IMG/VR virus record: IMGVR_UViG_3300034166_000746
Location: 1-38,263 of that record
Direction: 5' to 3' (one strand)
DNA length: 38,263 nt
DNA from: a virus
Below are positions 1-37,331 of this stretch, in pieces; positions within the stretch are counted from its first letter, which is position 1, and the number at the start of each line of letters is the position of its first letter. Below the pieces are notes generated by a model. The model saw only the letters and a list, made by a program, of their open reading frames with translations, was not told the DNA's origin and did no database searches. Position numbers and translations under genes: made by a program.

Positions 1-652
1 CGCGCAGAAGCAAGTCGCCAAGCTCGCCGGGAACGATCCGCTGGCCTTGCTGGTCAATGGCGATGCCACCGAAGGCATCCACCACCGCTCGCCCGAAGTT
101 GTTGCCAGCTTAATCGAACATCATTGCCAGATGGCGGCTGTGGCCTTGAAGCCGTGGGCCGATCGTGCCGTCAAAACCTACGTCACGCGCGGCACTGAGT
201 GCCACACGCACGATGTGGAAAGCTACCTCGCCCGCCTGCTCGGCGCGGAAGACGGCAAGGCCCGCGACAAGTGGCTGCTTTCCATCGCAGGGTGCCAAGT
301 GGACGCCGCGCACCACATCGGCACCACGGCCCGCACCTACCTTGAAGCCTCCCTGCTTTCCATTGTGTTGGGCAACGCTCGCCTGAACAGCGTCCGCGCC
401 GGGCATCCCGTGTCGCAAGTCTATCTCCGCGCTCACCGTCATTGCGGTGGCGTCTATTCGGACGGCAGCGGCCTCATGGCTGTCACAGGCGCTTGGCAGT
501 TCCTCACGCGCCACGGCCACAAGGTTGTCGGTGACGCCATCCCCCGCCCTTCCGTGCTGGTCTTGGATTGGCGCGACAAGCCAGACGGTTCCCTGCCTAC
601 GCCACACCACATCTTTTTCAACGCGCCAGCGCCAGAAATTGCCGAGGTATGA
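1..652 (+). CDS. Metallophosphoesterase, 5'-truncated second allele
   Basis: This is the C-terminal 216 residues of a calcineurin-like metallophosphoesterase; the frame is open from base 2. It retains the NGDATEG metal-binding motif, the RGTECH block and the H-x-H of RAHRHCGG, but lacks the N-terminal D-x-H found in the complete copy at 37332-38150. Against that copy there are about 59 base differences in 638 bases, no indel, and only about 7 amino-acid changes, so both alleles are under purifying selection. It is probably a strain variant joined to the contig during assembly. The TGA overlaps the next start (ATGA). Confidence 0.85.
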   Translation, partial: AQKQVAKLAGNDPLALLVNGDATEGIHHRSPEVVASLIEHHCQMAAVALKPWADRAVKTYVTRGTECHTHDVESYLARLLGAEDGKARDKWLLSIAGCQVDAAHHIGTTARTYLEASLLSIVLGNARLNSVRAGHPVSQVYLRAHRHCGGVYSDGSGLMAVTGAWQFLTRHGHKVVGDAIPRPSVLVLDWRDKPDGSLPTPHHIFFNAPAPEIAEV

Positions 653-765
653 AAGAAAAACTCAAAGACAAATACCACGACTGCGGCCACCGCCCGCGCA
701 ACACGGACAAGCGCAAGCGGACGGCCAAGGTTAAGCCACCAACGCAAAACGACATACAGCAGCCA
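1..765. repeat. Left terminal repeat (diverged, pairs with 37499-38263)
   Basis: Base n matches base n+37498 without gaps. Positions 1-638 carry about 59 substitutions (roughly 9 percent), mostly at third codon positions. Positions 639-765 are identical for exactly 127 bases, up to the end of the window. An exact 127-base end match is the signature expected where a k=127 assembly path re-enters a vertex. Joining there gives a circle of 37,498 bp. Confidence 0.9.
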
Positions 766-981
766 ACAGGCACAAAAGCCCAAACGGCTGGCCAAGGTTG
801 GGAGTGTTTTCGCTGCCACAGGATTAACGCACCCTTTGTCCAGCAATGCAGTTGCAGCGGCTATTTCACTACAACGTATCCCAACACGCCGCCGCATTGG
901 CCTTGGTGGAAGCAGTATGAAATCACCTGTGCTTCAAGCGCCACACACGACCCCCGTGTTGTTTGTTATGCGTCAATCTAA
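649..981 (+). CDS. Small zinc-ribbon protein, unknown role
   Basis: A 110-residue protein starting at the ATG that overlaps the phosphoesterase stop (ATGA). The N-terminal 35 residues are strongly basic (MKEKLKDKYHD, then repeated K and R). Residues 45-70 hold W-x-C-x2-C-x10-C-x-C, a pattern like RanBP2-type or rubredoxin-like zinc ribbons, in which four cysteines bind one zinc. The tail is aromatic (PPHWPWWKQYE). The basic arm plus a ribbon suggests nucleic-acid binding. Translational coupling suggests it acts with the phosphoesterase. I do not recognise a named family. Confidence 0.65.
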   Translation: MKEKLKDKYHDCGHRPRNTDKRKRTAKVKPPTQNDIQQPTGTKAQTAGQGWECFRCHRINAPFVQQCSCSGYFTTTYPNTPPHWPWWKQYEITCASSATHDPRVVCYASI

Positions 982-1225
982 GCTCACCGCCGAGCAGATC
1001 GAAGAAGCAGCATGGGCCGCAGCCCTGCGTGCCCCCGCCGTGACGGACGTAGTTCCGCCCGGCTGGTTTACCACCAAACAACTTGCCGACAAACTAAACA
1101 AGACGCGGCCAACGATGGCCCGCCTGCTCGCCGATGCCGTAGCGGCTGGCCGCTGCGAGGTGCAAAAATTCCGCGTGAGCGTGGGAAGTTTTTCGCGGGC
1201 GACTCCGCACTATCGACCGCGATGA
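968..1225 (+). CDS. Winged-helix-like DNA-binding protein
   Basis: An 85-residue protein; an in-frame ATG at 917 would add 17 residues. I prefer 968 because it overlaps the previous stop by only 14 bases, as is usual in this genome. Residues 31-65 read GWFTTKQLADKLNKTR followed by a second helix (MARLLADAVAAGR) and a short beta wing (CEVQKFRV). That is the layout of a small winged helix-turn-helix. It probably regulates transcription or forms a DNA-binding subunit of the cassette. Its stop overlaps the next start (ATGA). Confidence 0.6.
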   Translation: MRQSKLTAEQIEEAAWAAALRAPAVTDVVPPGWFTTKQLADKLNKTRPTMARLLADAVAAGRCEVQKFRVSVGSFSRATPHYRPR

Positions 1226-1566
1226 AAAAGCCCGCCAAAGGCCAACGTCGGCGCAAGAAACCAGCGCCCACAATGCGCTTCAAGCTCGACGGCCAATGGT
1301 GGCGCGTCCGGGTGGAGCGTCCGCCTGACAAGGAAAAGCTCGACGGCCTGTGCCACTACAAGAAACGCACCGTGTGGCTAAACCCCGAAGCGGTGAAAGG
1401 CGACTTGCTCGGCATCGTCACGCACGAATTAACGCACGCCTGCATCCCGCCGACTGACGAGACGCACGTTCGGGACTTGGAGCGGCTGGTCTGTGCGGTG
1501 GTTCGGTGGGCGGCGACGAGATGCAACGATGGCAAGATCAGCATTGGCCGTCACAAAGCATCCTGA
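1222..1566 (+). CDS. HExxH zinc metallopeptidase-like protein
   Basis: A 114-residue protein starting in an ATGA overlap. A basic N-terminus (KGQRRRKKPAP) precedes a beta-rich part (WWRVRVERPPDKEKLDG) and then ITHELTHACIPPTDETHV-like sequence (the text reads VTHELTHACI). This is an H-E-x-x-H motif with a downstream E-T-H that could give a third ligand. The size and motif placement resemble minimal SprT-like or ImmA-like gluzincins. Next to a small DNA-binding protein, an ImmR/ImmA-like regulatory pair is conceivable. No family match is certain. Confidence 0.6.
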   Translation: MKKPAKGQRRRKKPAPTMRFKLDGQWWRVRVERPPDKEKLDGLCHYKKRTVWLNPEAVKGDLLGIVTHELTHACIPPTDETHVRDLERLVCAVVRWAATRCNDGKISIGRHKAS

Positions 1567-1572
1567 CTTTTC

Positions 1573-1719
1573 GTGACCTTCTGGCCCTTGCTCGCCTCAA
1601 CCATGCTCTACGTCCTCACGGCGGCGGGCTTTCTCCGCGACGGCAACGGGCCGATGGCCGTGGCGTTCGGCGGGTATGCCCTGGCGAATGTCGGCTTCCT
1701 TTGGCTGACTTGGCGATGA
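1573..1719 (+). CDS. Small two-helix membrane protein
   Basis: A 48-residue protein from a GTG start, six bases after the previous stop. Residues 3-20 (FWPLLASTMLYVLTAAGF) and 28-46 (MAVAFGGYALANVGFLWL) form two hydrophobic helices separated by the charged turn LRDGNG. The shape fits a small inner-membrane hairpin. It closes the plus-strand cassette and could anchor or signal for it. A holin-like role is less likely because the lysis genes lie on the other strand. No internal start leaves both helices intact. Confidence 0.55.
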   Translation: MTFWPLLASTMLYVLTAAGFLRDGNGPMAVAFGGYALANVGFLWLTWR

Positions 1720-1769: not shown

Positions 1770-1910
1770 TTAGGCAAGCAGCATGGCTAAACGTCTGAAC
1801 AAACGCCACAGGCAGAGCCGTCCCGCAGGACGATTCGGCGCGTGCCGCTCGACGTAGCCGATGCCGCCATACGGGCCATAGACAAGGCCGCTGTCGGTAG
1901 ATCGGTGCAT
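1770..1910 (-). CDS. Small basic protein, last gene of the lysis block
   Basis: A 46-residue protein. A strong ribosome binding site (AAAGGAGG) lies just upstream of the ATG and overlaps the end of the amidase gene. The first half is glycine- and tyrosine-rich (LVYGPYGGIGY). The second half is arginine- and leucine-rich (RLCLWRLFRRLAMLLA) and forms a cationic amphipathic or membrane-associating helix. A role in lysis is suggested by position and helix type only. I recognise no family. Confidence 0.5.
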   Translation of the reverse strand: MHRSTDSGLVYGPYGGIGYVERHAPNRPAGRLCLWRLFRRLAMLLA

Positions 1911-8460: not shown

Positions 8461-8889
8461 TTAGCGCGACTCCACAGCCCACCGAAACGGGAAAGCCATC
8501 GGCCCCCGGCGATCCTCATCGGGATTGGCGGGATCGTATTCGCGGGACGGAAGGTTAAGGATCGCCGCCGAGGTGTGGCCGTGGCAGGGCGTGAAGCCGT
8601 GAAACAACCCTGCGGGGATGATGAGTAGCTGCGGCGTGTCGGCGGAAAGGATGACGGTTTGCCCGCGCTTGGCCTCGGCATCCCAGATGCCGACTTTCGC
8701 CGCGCCCGCTACGCAATACCAGCGATCCACTTGCAGTCGGTGGCGGTGCCAGGCTTTGACCACCCCCGCCGCGCAAGTCGTGATGTAGGCTTGGCCGAAG
8801 CCATGCGCGTCATCCGAGGCGCGGAAGATTTCCGTAAGCCTGCCCCGCTCATCGAGGTGGGCGGTGAGTGAGCGGATCTCGGCTAACAT
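8461..8889 (-). CDS. RmlC-like cupin sugar epimerase
   Basis: A 142-residue cupin related to dTDP-4-dehydrorhamnose 3,5-epimerase. The match rests on GRLTEIFRASD, then WHRHRLQVDRWYCVAGAAKV, then LLIIPAGLFHGF and a PSREYDPANPDED end, which follow the RmlC order of active-site His pair, cupin strands and YDP loop. It is shorter than full RmlC (about 180), so the exact substrate is unsure. I chose the ATG at 8889, which has AGGA eight bases upstream; 8898 is an alternative. It overlaps the glycosyltransferase by 7 bases and probably supplies or modifies its sugar. Confidence 0.75.
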   Translation of the reverse strand: MLAEIRSLTAHLDERGRLTEIFRASDDAHGFGQAYITTCAAGVVKAWHRHRLQVDRWYCVAGAAKVGIWDAEAKRGQTVILSADTPQLLIIPAGLFHGFTPCHGHTSAAILNLPSREYDPANPDEDRRGPMAFPFRWAVESR

Positions 8890-17778: not shown

Positions 17779-19533
17779 CTAACCCTGCGAGTCAAAGGCG
17801 TCGGGGTTGCGGCGGCGGAATACTTCAAGGCCGAACTTGTAGCCCTCTGAGCTATTTTCTATGGCGTAGATGTCATCGGTTGGGACGGCCGGATTGAAAA
17901 ATGGATGCTCGTGCCGCAGGACAATGTCGCTTGGCACGATCCATCCGTTCTTTTTGGCCCGGTGCGTGAACTCGTTGTCGCAAAACACGCCCCGATATTC
18001 ATCGCTAACAATGCCCCCGTTGTGATTCATGGCGCGCAGGGTCGGGCGCGTGACGCAGAACGTAATCAGCAAATCGTCGTTTCGGTAGCCGTCGCCAACC
18101 TGAAGCACGGCCGGCCTGTTCAGATGATTTGCAAGCGCCTTCCAAATGAGTTCGTCCCAGAACAGGCAGGGTTCCAGATCGTCTTGGATTGTCAGGATGA
18201 TTTTGCCGCTACTTGCGCGCACGGCGGCATTGTAATTTTGGACGAGCGTTCCACCCACGGCGTCTAGGTTGCCGGCGGCAGACTGCGCGTGGCGGAATCG
18301 GCCCAAGATGTCTGCCGTTTCGGTATCGTCGGCCGAAAACCCAAAGATGTATTCAATGGCCTGCGGATCTTTGGCGGCCTCGAGCCACTTCTTGCGCGTC
18401 TCGGCGGCCTGCAAAGGGCGGCCGCGCGTCGGGTGGCACACGCTAATCTTGCCGCCACACTTCTTGAACCATTCGAGCTCGAACTTGTCGGCCTTCTCGG
18501 TGTCGCCGTTGGCGCGCAAACAGCAGGCATAGAGCCCCACCCCGCCGAAGCCATAGACCACCGGGCGGTGCGTCCACGGCACCACGTCGGGAACAGGGAT
18601 CGCCATGAAAGCGCGGGCATAGGCCAAGGCGTCTTGCGGTTCGTTGTTGTCGAGCGAAACGGCAGCCAGTTGGGCCAAGGCTTCGCGGCGCCACGGGCTC
18701 ACTTTGTAGGCTTCATGCAATAGCGACTTTTTCGGCGCGAAGTCGTGCGTCCGCATGGCGAGTTGAAGGTAAAGCTCGTAACGCTCGTTATCGTCCAGCC
18801 CTGGCGTTTTGAGCGCCTCGACCGCATAGGCCATGCCGTTCTCGTCATCCTTGAACCCGAAATGCTCAAGGCTCGCGTAAAAAAGCCAACGCGGGTTTTT
18901 GTCGAAGTCGGGAATGGATGAGATGATGCGCCAGTTGCGCTGGTTGCCCTGCTTGCCGTCGGCCTCGTCTTTGTGCGAGTCGGGCGCGTGGACGATGCGG
19001 CAGTCCTCCCAGCGGACGTGGCCGTCGCCCGATTTGTCCACCGGCTCGAGGTGTTCATGCACAGGGTCCGCCCAGACGGCCGTGCCGCGCCGCCAGATGC
19101 GCTCCCGCAGGAGATTGAGTCCGTTATTGGTCAGACGGTAGGGAACAAGCGCCAGCGTGGTTTCTGGGGCGGTAATGCGTAGATGCTCGCGGATGATGTC
19201 GGCGCTCTCGGACTCGAGGATATCGTCGGTATCGGCCCACATGAGCCACTCGTGGCCGTCGGCCTCGGCCATGTCGGCGGCCATTTGCCGGGCGGCGCCG
19301 AAGTTGTCCACATGGTCCCAGAATTGGTGCGCCTCGGCGTTCTTGTATTCGCCGACCTTGCACCCCATTTCGCGGGCGATGTCCAGGGTCTTGTCTGGAT
19401 CTCGGCTGCCGCAGGCGCGGACGATGTAGATGTGCGGCGTGAGCCGCTGGAATGATTCGATAAACCGCCGGATGTAGCTCTCGCAGTTTCCCGCAATCGC
19501 CACTAGCGCCAACGAGGGCTGTGTGTTCTCCAT
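17779..19533 (-). CDS. Two-domain glycosyltransferase in the head/neck operon
   Basis: A 584-residue protein. Domain one (1-150) is GT2-like: LALVAIAGNCESYIRRFIES, then a DADGHEWLMWADTDDILE-type DxD (W-A-D-T-D-D). A middle helical TPR-like part (about 220-330, ERYELYLQLAMRTHDF) follows. The C-terminal part (about 350-584) holds a second GT-like unit with VCHPTRGRPLQAAETRK, NAAVRASSGKIILTIQDDLE (another D-D) and FDNEFTHRA-like sequence near VFCDNEFTHRAKKNGW. It would add sugars from a nucleotide-sugar donor. Its place in the capsid operon suggests a virion target. Confidence 0.75.
   Translation of the reverse strand: MENTQPSLALVAIAGNCESYIRRFIESFQRLTPHIYIVRACGSRDPDKTLDIAREMGCKVGEYKNAEAHQFWDHVDNFGAARQMAADMAEADGHEWLMWADTDDILESESADIIREHLRITAPETTLALVPYRLTNNGLNLLRERIWRRGTAVWADPVHEHLEPVDKSGDGHVRWEDCRIVHAPDSHKDEADGKQGNQRNWRIISSIPDFDKNPRWLFYASLEHFGFKDDENGMAYAVEALKTPGLDDNERYELYLQLAMRTHDFAPKKSLLHEAYKVSPWRREALAQLAAVSLDNNEPQDALAYARAFMAIPVPDVVPWTHRPVVYGFGGVGLYACCLRANGDTEKADKFELEWFKKCGGKISVCHPTRGRPLQAAETRKKWLEAAKDPQAIEYIFGFSADDTETADILGRFRHAQSAAGNLDAVGGTLVQNYNAAVRASSGKIILTIQDDLEPCLFWDELIWKALANHLNRPAVLQVGDGYRNDDLLITFCVTRPTLRAMNHNGGIVSDEYRGVFCDNEFTHRAKKNGWIVPSDIVLRHEHPFFNPAVPTDDIYAIENSSEGYKFGLEVFRRRNPDAFDSQG
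17790..17795 (-). promoter_or_regulatory. TTGACT variant before neck gene
   Basis: Minus strand CCTTTGACTC inside the 3' end of the glycosyltransferase gene, 14 bases before the ATG at 17775. One mismatch to the consensus. Confidence 0.4.
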
Positions 19534-35980: not shown

Positions 35981-37051
35981 ATGAAAACCGATACGGTCAA
36001 AGTGGGATCATTTTCCGCCCACCTTTGGCTGGCCTCTGACGGACGCTGGAAATGGCACACCCACAAGGCCGGGCGGCGCATCCTTTGCACCGCCAAAAAC
36101 CTCGACCGCGCCCGCGACAAAGCCCGCGCCCAGCTTAAAGCCATCCGGATCGGCAAGGCAGACTTGTCCGAGATCACTCCCGCCCTGCTCTCCGAGTTCC
36201 AGCAGTGGCGAGCCACGCGGCTGGAATCGCCCAAGGTGTCCGAGGCCGTGACTCGCTACATGGCGCACCTCAACGATCGCAAGGTGCAAGAGACGCGCAT
36301 TGTGGCCTCCGACCTTGATAAGTTTGCCAAGGCCCACCCTTGCCGCATGAGCGAGGTCACTCCCGACCAGATCCGCGACTACCTCGACCGCCTGCCTGTT
36401 GGCCCTCGCCGCTACAACAATGTCCGCACCGCGCTTGTCAGCTTCTTTTCGTGGGCGCGCAAGTCGGCGCTCATCCCTGACGGCATGACCGCGCCAGAGC
36501 GCACACACACCAAGACCTTGGACACAAAGCCTGTGGCGATCTACACGCCGAAGGAGTTCCGCGCCCTACTTGCCGCCGCCCCAAGCGAATGGCGGCTCGC
36601 CCTGGCAATCGGTGGCCTTGCTGGCCTACGCACCGAAGAGATCCAAGGACTGCGCTGGGAGGACATTAAGCTCGGCAGAAAGCACATCGAGGTGCGGCCA
36701 GAGATTTGCAAAACCAAACGCCGCCGCCTCGTCCCGATCCTGCCTGCACTGGCAACGTGGATTCGCAAAAGCGAGCCGCAGCCCGGCGGCATGGTTGCCC
36801 CGCAAGATAGGATCGACAATTTGGCAAAGCGCCTGCGCCGAAAAAAGGTGCTCTGGGTAAAGAATGGGCTGCGACATTCTTTCGGAAGTTACCGATGCGC
36901 CGCCGTGAAAAGTGCCTCACAGGTGGCCTTAGAAATGGGCAACTCCGAGGCCGTAGTCCGCAAGAACTACCTTGAAATGCAGGAAAGAAAGGCCGCAACC
37001 GACTGGTTCAAAACTGGTTACTTTCCTCTCTCAAATTCTGTAAGTCGTTGA
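35981..37051 (+). CDS. int: Tyrosine integrase
   Basis: A 356-residue recombinase. An arm-binding N-terminus (FSAHLWLASDGRWKWHTH) and core-binding helices (DLDKFAKAHPCRMSEVTPDQ) precede the catalytic domain. R217 lies in GLAGLRTEEIQGL, with a lysine near CKTKRRR. Box II reads KNGLRHSFGSY, so Asn295 replaces the usual His while R298 is kept. Box III is EMGNSEAVV, with Asn321 for His. The tyrosine nucleophile is Y330 (VVRKNYLEM). These Asn variants are what I recall in Verrucomicrobiota integrases. A weak site (AGGGA) abuts the ATG. Confidence 0.9.
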   Translation: MKTDTVKVGSFSAHLWLASDGRWKWHTHKAGRRILCTAKNLDRARDKARAQLKAIRIGKADLSEITPALLSEFQQWRATRLESPKVSEAVTRYMAHLNDRKVQETRIVASDLDKFAKAHPCRMSEVTPDQIRDYLDRLPVGPRRYNNVRTALVSFFSWARKSALIPDGMTAPERTHTKTLDTKPVAIYTPKEFRALLAAAPSEWRLALAIGGLAGLRTEEIQGLRWEDIKLGRKHIEVRPEICKTKRRRLVPILPALATWIRKSEPQPGGMVAPQDRIDNLAKRLRRKKVLWVKNGLRHSFGSYRCAAVKSASQVALEMGNSEAVVRKNYLEMQERKAATDWFKTGYFPLSNSVSR

Positions 37052-37302: not shown

Positions 37303-37309
37303 ATATGAC

Positions 37310-37315
37310 TTGACA
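37310..37315 (+). promoter_or_regulatory. TTGACA site before the metallophosphoesterase
   Basis: Plus strand ACTTGACATA, 16 bases before the ATG at 37332, so the motif also marks a plus-strand start. Confidence 0.55.
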
Positions 37316-37331
37316 TACGGCTCGCCCTTGC

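Follow-up and report, generated by a model that had tools for sequence, protein, structure and literature searches.

An exchangeable phosphoesterase and winged-helix gene cassette common to many uncultured freshwater and groundwater phages

The stretch of DNA analysed here (the window, 38,263 nt, an IMG/VR virus record) carries one copy of a small gene cassette that is common to many uncultured freshwater and groundwater phages. Our results support its description as an auxiliary phage cassette that is mobile, late and built of fixed slots. Slot 1 is taken by a metallophosphoesterase of either of two families (PE or PE2), slot 2 by a small winged-helix protein (WH) and slot 3 by a GNAT acetyltransferase or by an HExxH protein, which a small membrane protein (TM) usually accompanies. 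The block is probably an interchangeable tool of phages, used on DNA, and not defence cargo of a lysogen. Our preferred mechanism, to which we give a probability of roughly 0.4, is a DNA-acting phosphodiesterase (PE) with a DNA-binding partner (WH).

The two contig ends (1–765 and 37499–38263) overlap over 765 nt with 92.3% identity; the final 127 nt are identical and the remainder is ~8% divergent. An identical tail of 127 nt is a usual assembler k-mer (k = 127, a circular graph with a two-allele bubble), so the end overlap is a contig-end effect, and the PE copies at the two ends are one gene present as two strain alleles that the assembler joined, with no real duplication. Thus, the phage genome is ~37.5 kb and circular or circularly permuted. 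Comparison of the two alleles gives 59 differences, 44 of them at codon position 3 (dN 0.029, dS 0.349). The strong allelic divergence with a conserved protein that an earlier note on this DNA had remarked on is therefore real as a measurement, and its cause is the two-allele overlap at the contig ends.

Across the join the gene order is integrase, PE, a zinc-ribbon protein (ZR), WH, the HExxH protein, TM, a basic protein of 46 aa encoded on the opposite strand, an amidase and a holin-like gene (Table 1). The zinc ribbon, winged helix, HExxH (HELTH) and two-helix membrane proteins are, as the earlier note had proposed, coupled + strand genes within 649–1719, with neighbours that overlap or lie no more than 7 nt apart. 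The phosphoesterase, which it had counted in the same interval, lies outside it, and the 46-aa protein is a member of the neighbourhood that it had not mentioned. Elsewhere in the window, in the structural region, one protein has a beta-1,4-glycosyltransferase PHROG match (17779–19533, −) and another is cupin-like and by eye resembles a dTDP-sugar epimerase (8461–8889, −).

Table 1. The cassette and its immediate surroundings in the window
Feature	Position	Strand	Remarks
PE, full copy, 272 aa	37332..38150	+	predicted metallophosphoesterase fold
PE, truncated second strain allele	1..652	+	contig-end overlap
ZR, 110-aa zinc-ribbon protein	649..981	+	zf-DPOE match; optional insert between PE and WH
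WH, 85-aa winged-helix protein	968..1225	+	weak wHTH profile matches; N-terminal LTAEQIEEAAWAAAL segment plus wHTH
HExxH protein, 114 aa	1222..1566	+	HELTH and conserved Glu; minigluzincin-like model
TM, 48 aa, two hydrophobic segments, GTG start	1573..1719	+	accompanies the HExxH protein, not GNAT
46-aa basic protein (f43)	1770..1910	-	convergent neighbour of the cassette; good ribosome-binding site
Tyrosine integrase	35981..37051	+	PHROG 1, E 1.7e-27; adjoins the cassette; context, outside the core
CTTGACAT motif	37309..37316	+	23 nt upstream of the PE start; [CT]TTGACA[CT], common to late genes

Scans of IMG/VR with PE found 22 relatives, then 245 and 160, with 80 kept from each of the last two, and recurrence was judged by our own gene calling and family clustering together with profile searches of the loci fetched with PE. 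The co-occurrence of the cassette genes in other phages, which the earlier note had put forward as a check, was found and is far beyond chance. Of its five-gene coupled set, the linkage recurs in many phages, but five is too many: ZR (zf-DPOE, 21.5 bits against a cut-off of 21) occurs in two records only, the second being a podovirus-type contig (L072) with a 93% identical protein in the same slot, and this rules it out as a core part. The 46-aa protein stands beside the block in 10 PE loci and about half of the PE2 loci (profile search); in L036 it occurs once on the other side and strand of the block. A PE tree of 60 rows requires a minimum of 11 switches between HExxH and GNAT in slot 3, and a minimum of 10 changes of genome context. 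In a pattern-limited scan of 50,697 phage records, PE relatives are found only in MW202647.1 and, distantly, in an archaeal virus. We also note that several lake phages encode, between PE and a TerL-like gene, a 319-aa protein that by eye is arginine-deiminase/amidinotransferase-like (L012 2805–3764). The remark that no named system is recognisable here holds, since Pfam, PHROGs, NCBIfam and PADLOC gave no match to the cassette beyond generic folds; the PADLOC search returned one chance-level match (E 0.017, the 48-aa protein), and an Rfam scan gave none.

The AF2 model of PE, built from 27 relatives (pLDDT 80.6, pTM 0.85), clearly predicts a fold of the metallophosphoesterase (calcineurin-like) superfamily. 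Of 456 chains that match it at Z of 8 or more, the PolD DP1 exonuclease is the best (228 residues, Z 16.2), and the next folds are VPS29 (Z 15), Mre11 (Z 13.7, ~205 residues) and LpxH (Z 13), with GpdQ/Rv0805 also close. DxH, GDxxE, GTECH, HH and HxH are invariant in the PE alignment; the canonical GNH[DE] motif is replaced by GTECH, or by GTxxH in the most distant members. Nuclease activity is therefore not assured, and VPS29-like folds score almost as high as nucleases against the model. By sequence the family is nearly invisible to profile collections: PHROGs and NCBIfam contain nothing that matches PE, Pfam gives it no significant match, PF00149 is detected in just 1 of 27 members, PHROG 221 matches neither PE nor anything else in the window, and PDB sequence searches with PE and PE2 profiles gave no useful match. 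PE is under purifying selection (omega 0.13).

The second slot-1 family came from a scan with the HExxH protein, which found 22 further phages whose HExxH proteins are 72–100% identical and which have no PE. In all 22, slot 1 holds PE2, a different metallophosphoesterase of ~235–260 aa, and the locus continues with WH, the HExxH protein, TM and often the 46-aa gene. PE2 has a Pfam Metallophos match in most members scanned, carries Cys in place of Asp in motif I, and matches PHROG 221 (E 1.1e-18 and 1.2e-20). PE and PE2 never occur together in 38 records (14 with PE2 and 24 with PE, many of them incomplete; positive controls included). The exchange can be followed at the nucleotide level: over the integrase and the intergenic DNA the window shares ~93% identity with PE2 phages such as L205, the sequences part at the start codon of slot 1, and similarity returns ~17 codons into WH. 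That two phosphoesterase families interchange before a DNA-binding protein suggests selection for phosphoesterase action on or near DNA.

PHROG 221 also ties PE2 to an enzyme studied by experiment. Gp48 of A10ZJ24, a Cluster A mycobacteriophage, is a toxic protein with phosphodiesterase and nuclease activity; it degrades the DNA of the host and acts against host defence (PMC12287305). Our comparison used gp48 of the Cluster A phage HINdeR as a Gp48-type relative, and it matches PHROG 221 with E 1.7e-118; by this relationship PE2 may have nuclease/phosphodiesterase activity. Phosphoesterases of PHROG 221 with a fused N-terminal HTH were considered as a Rosetta stone for the PE–WH pair and set aside, as no adequate match to the extension was obtained. 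Two such proteins have an N-terminal extension that is possibly an HTH: one in MW202627.1 (L220 2135–3235; GcrA-like at only E 0.75) and one in Aeromonas phage vB_AdhaP_MF (L221 2234–3202; no relevant match).

A WH-type gene follows PE in 35 of 39 testable lineages (lineages at 90% identity; loci fetched via PE alone and searched with a WH profile that included the WH-like sequence of MW202647.1), and the two genes overlap or nearly so. In three of the four exceptions (L099, L103 and L141) an 85–93 aa gene overlapping the PE stop reads by eye as a winged helix, as does the gene after PE in podophage MW202647.1 itself, whose unannotated PE is 32% identical. The N-terminus of WH contains a TAE motif in 74 of 76 PE-linked proteins and in none of the 22 PE2-linked ones, which share an N-terminal D-x-[DS]LAxWCAAL, and the wHTH part is up to 98% identical between the two groups. 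Judged from these alignments, the WH N-terminus tracks the enzyme present and its winged helix swaps freely, which fits a predicted docking segment matched to the slot-1 enzyme. The match could also come from physical linkage alone, the N-terminal codons being adjacent DNA, since the homology between the window and the PE2 phages restarts only ~17 codons into WH. WH is under purifying selection and is the fastest-changing cassette gene (omega 0.34). Its recognition helix is the most variable stretch, and as a positively selected hot spot it is only suggestive at a permutation p of 0.087 and this omega.

A small HTH gene in such a place also brings to mind an anti-defence operon of the acr-aca type, in which the phosphoesterase and the protease or acetyltransferase would inhibit host defence and WH would be a dedicated autorepressor. 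According to PMC9765179, acr-aca operons are recognised by a small HTH gene next to variable accessory genes, and here a small HTH gene overlaps the gene before it and stands by variable accessory genes, between head-morphogenesis genes. We rank this reading next after our preferred mechanism but nevertheless consider it unlikely. A repressor has no need of an N-terminus that tracks the enzyme; in scaffold-type phages the scaffold stop overlaps PE or comes just before it, which leaves no room for a separate promoter; and no operator co-variation is seen, nearly the same upstream DNA occurring with different wHTH domains. On this last point, a first k-mer contrast did favour an autorepressor with a site after TTGACA (TTGACATAC in 5 of 6), but the full table gave clear counter-examples and the candidate was dropped: near-identical upstream DNA, even the same bases after TTGACA, is found with quite different wHTH domains in L202/L203 vs L205/L206 and in L008 vs L035 vs L216. 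Comparison of the cassette proteins with named families matched none of the Acr kind.

Slot 3 is filled by an HExxH protein (three subtypes) in 21 lineages, by a GNAT in 7 (PF00583, E 5e-9 to 2e-8, above the cut-off) and by something else in 10; its omega is 0.18, again purifying selection. In the HExxH protein, H68, E69, H72 and E80 are invariant in 20 relatives, so that the HExxH and a third Glu ligand are present; its AF2 model (pLDDT 85.9) has weak zincin fold matches (Z no more than 4.8), and a SprT-like profile matches weakly (E 0.056). In the lineage table the TM gene follows some HExxH subtypes and never accompanies GNAT. We also note that the gene after WH in MW202647.1 (L026 6367–6687) reads as a small nuclease of the PD-(D/E)XK type, which may be a third sort of enzyme in slot 3; its product has no family match.

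The membrane protein and the zincin could be at home at the envelope, and the substrate of PE would then be a nucleotide messenger or the phosphate of a lipid or sugar, cleaved in counter-defence or lysis. The LpxH and GpdQ/Rv0805 folds close to PE, the small membrane protein in the cassette and the lysis genes that adjoin it in integrase-type phages are all consistent with this. It strikes us as quite improbable, however, given that the DNA-binding partner is nearly universal, that the membrane protein is absent with GNAT and that the alternative enzyme, PE2, is related to a proven nuclease.

The genomic position of the cassette bears on its timing. Most PE relatives are part of a morphogenesis operon, and no integrase is in view there. 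Nearly all scaffold-type phages have PE either in a 4-nt overlap with the scaffold stop or beginning within 22 nt behind it (the distance is 57 nt in L029), and their capsid gene comes after the cassette. In TerL-type phages (a label given to family f6 by position and reading, f6 having no PHROG match) the cassette is flanked by terminase-region genes on one side and scaffold/capsid on the other, or else by terminase and portal. In integrase-type phages it adjoins the integrase, with the lysis genes adjoining as well. In the last group the motif [CT]TTGACA[CT] stands ~19–28 nt upstream of the slot-1 gene, PE or PE2, and of several late genes. Of its eight copies in the window, five are placed 18–28 nt before the ATG of an ORF at least 50 aa long, as compared with a mean of 0.12 copies so placed (maximum 2) for 179 permuted motif cores. 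Sites in the window include 37309 (+), 23215 (−), 21409 (−), 9946 (−), 8457 (−) and 2886 (−), and the motif recurs in ~ten related phages. It has no matching −10 box and so may be an unusual late promoter core or an activator site; sigma-70 promoter and terminator scans gave no informative signal. In the TerL-type phages a candidate for a shared upstream motif proved to be sequence that occurs before PE alone. From the late-operon position and the upstream motif, the cassette is apparently expressed late.

These results speak against the lysogenic cargo, expressed in the lysogen as a defence or immunity module, that the earlier note had proposed. The integrase does adjoin the cassette in the window and its close relatives, but most relatives are in late operons and have no integrase in view, a late-gene motif precedes PE, and PADLOC recognises no part of it. 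The companion proposal to look beside defence islands and in prophages found, within search sensitivity, no PE relative: none was confirmed in two pattern-based scans of 84,980 GTDB species genomes, in which rare prophage copies could escape, and none was found in a plasmid search. We consider a lysogen-expressed module highly improbable; a counter-defence rather than a defence role for the cassette is possible.

Its place beside scaffold, terminase, portal and capsid genes might instead mean that the cassette helps in late DNA metabolism or packaging, with PE and WH trimming or debranching DNA before or during packaging. The Mre11/PolD-like fold of PE and the late-gene motif upstream of it would suit such a role, and in an Aeromonas phage the PHROG 221 phosphoesterase adjoins endonuclease VII and an exonuclease. 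We think it distinctly unlikely all the same, as the cassette is not always present and can move among unrelated phages whose packaging proteins differ, the copy in the window is far from its own packaging genes, and the slot-3 enzymes have no obvious packaging role.

We therefore return to a DNA-acting phosphodiesterase with a DNA-binding partner, the basis for which is the linkage, the exchange, the purifying selection, the late-operon position, the PE fold and the relationship of PE2 to PHROG 221. In this mechanism PE would be a DNA or nucleic-acid phosphodiesterase, carried to DNA by WH, which would bind PE via its N-terminal segment. Late in infection the two together would process or damage the DNA of the host or of a rival, and a second, exchangeable activity, for example the disabling of a host protein, would come from the slot-3 enzyme. 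The replacement of a zincin by an acetyltransferase, and the reverse, in slot 3 counts against the mechanism, which leaves it unexplained. Also against it are the GTxxH of PE in place of GNH[DE], the VPS29-like folds that score nearly as well as nucleases, the motif-I Cys of PE2 and the early expression of Gp48. A tentative extension, itself unlikely as it stands, is a modular late weapon in which a generic phosphoesterase nuclease is aimed by WH, with the DNA-reading part swapped or diversified and the N-terminal dock matched to the enzyme; phages could in this way retarget the enzyme against hosts or competing phages and add an interchangeable protease or acetyltransferase effector.

Fixed slots in which two phosphoesterase families and two unrelated accessory enzymes interchange show which activities are wanted, not which proteins. 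Should PE–WH prove to be a directed nuclease, hundreds of uncultured phages would be connected with the experimentally studied Gp48, and the pair would make a simple system in which to test the steering of a phosphoesterase by a DNA-binding partner. In any case the GTxxH phosphoesterase and the VPPGW winged helix together are a family signature with which proteins missed by Pfam and PHROGs can be annotated. Full-text literature searches, with incomplete coverage, found no description of this cassette, of the GTxxH family or of the matched WH partner; phage phosphoesterases with counter-defence roles are already known, and it is the slot-exchangeable cassette, the GTxxH family and the matched WH that are new relative to the literature searched.

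Among known systems, PolD DP1 and Mre11 are the best fold matches of PE (228 and ~205 residues), but they are only 12–16% identical to it, their GNH is GTxxH in PE, and the cassette has no polymerase or Rad50 partner. The HExxH protein resembles the minigluzincin, IrrE and Wss1-SprT proteins in having HExxH and a downstream Glu on a two-helix scaffold, and these are its best weak fold matches, although its Z is at most 4.8 and there is no significant sequence match. With acr-aca operons the cassette shares a small HTH gene coupled to accessory genes, here within phage late regions, and it differs in having no operator co-variation, an HTH protein whose N-terminus tracks the enzyme, and no match to a known family. 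Gp48 of the Cluster A phages is likewise a phage metallophosphoesterase, and PE2 and HINdeR gp48 both match PHROG 221, whereas PE has neither a PHROG 221 match nor its motifs. Gp48 is expressed early and the gene for HINdeR gp48 is located in a region for nucleotide metabolism, while the cassette looks late; its late position, separate winged-helix partner and slot-3 exchange are features of the cassette that are not seen there.
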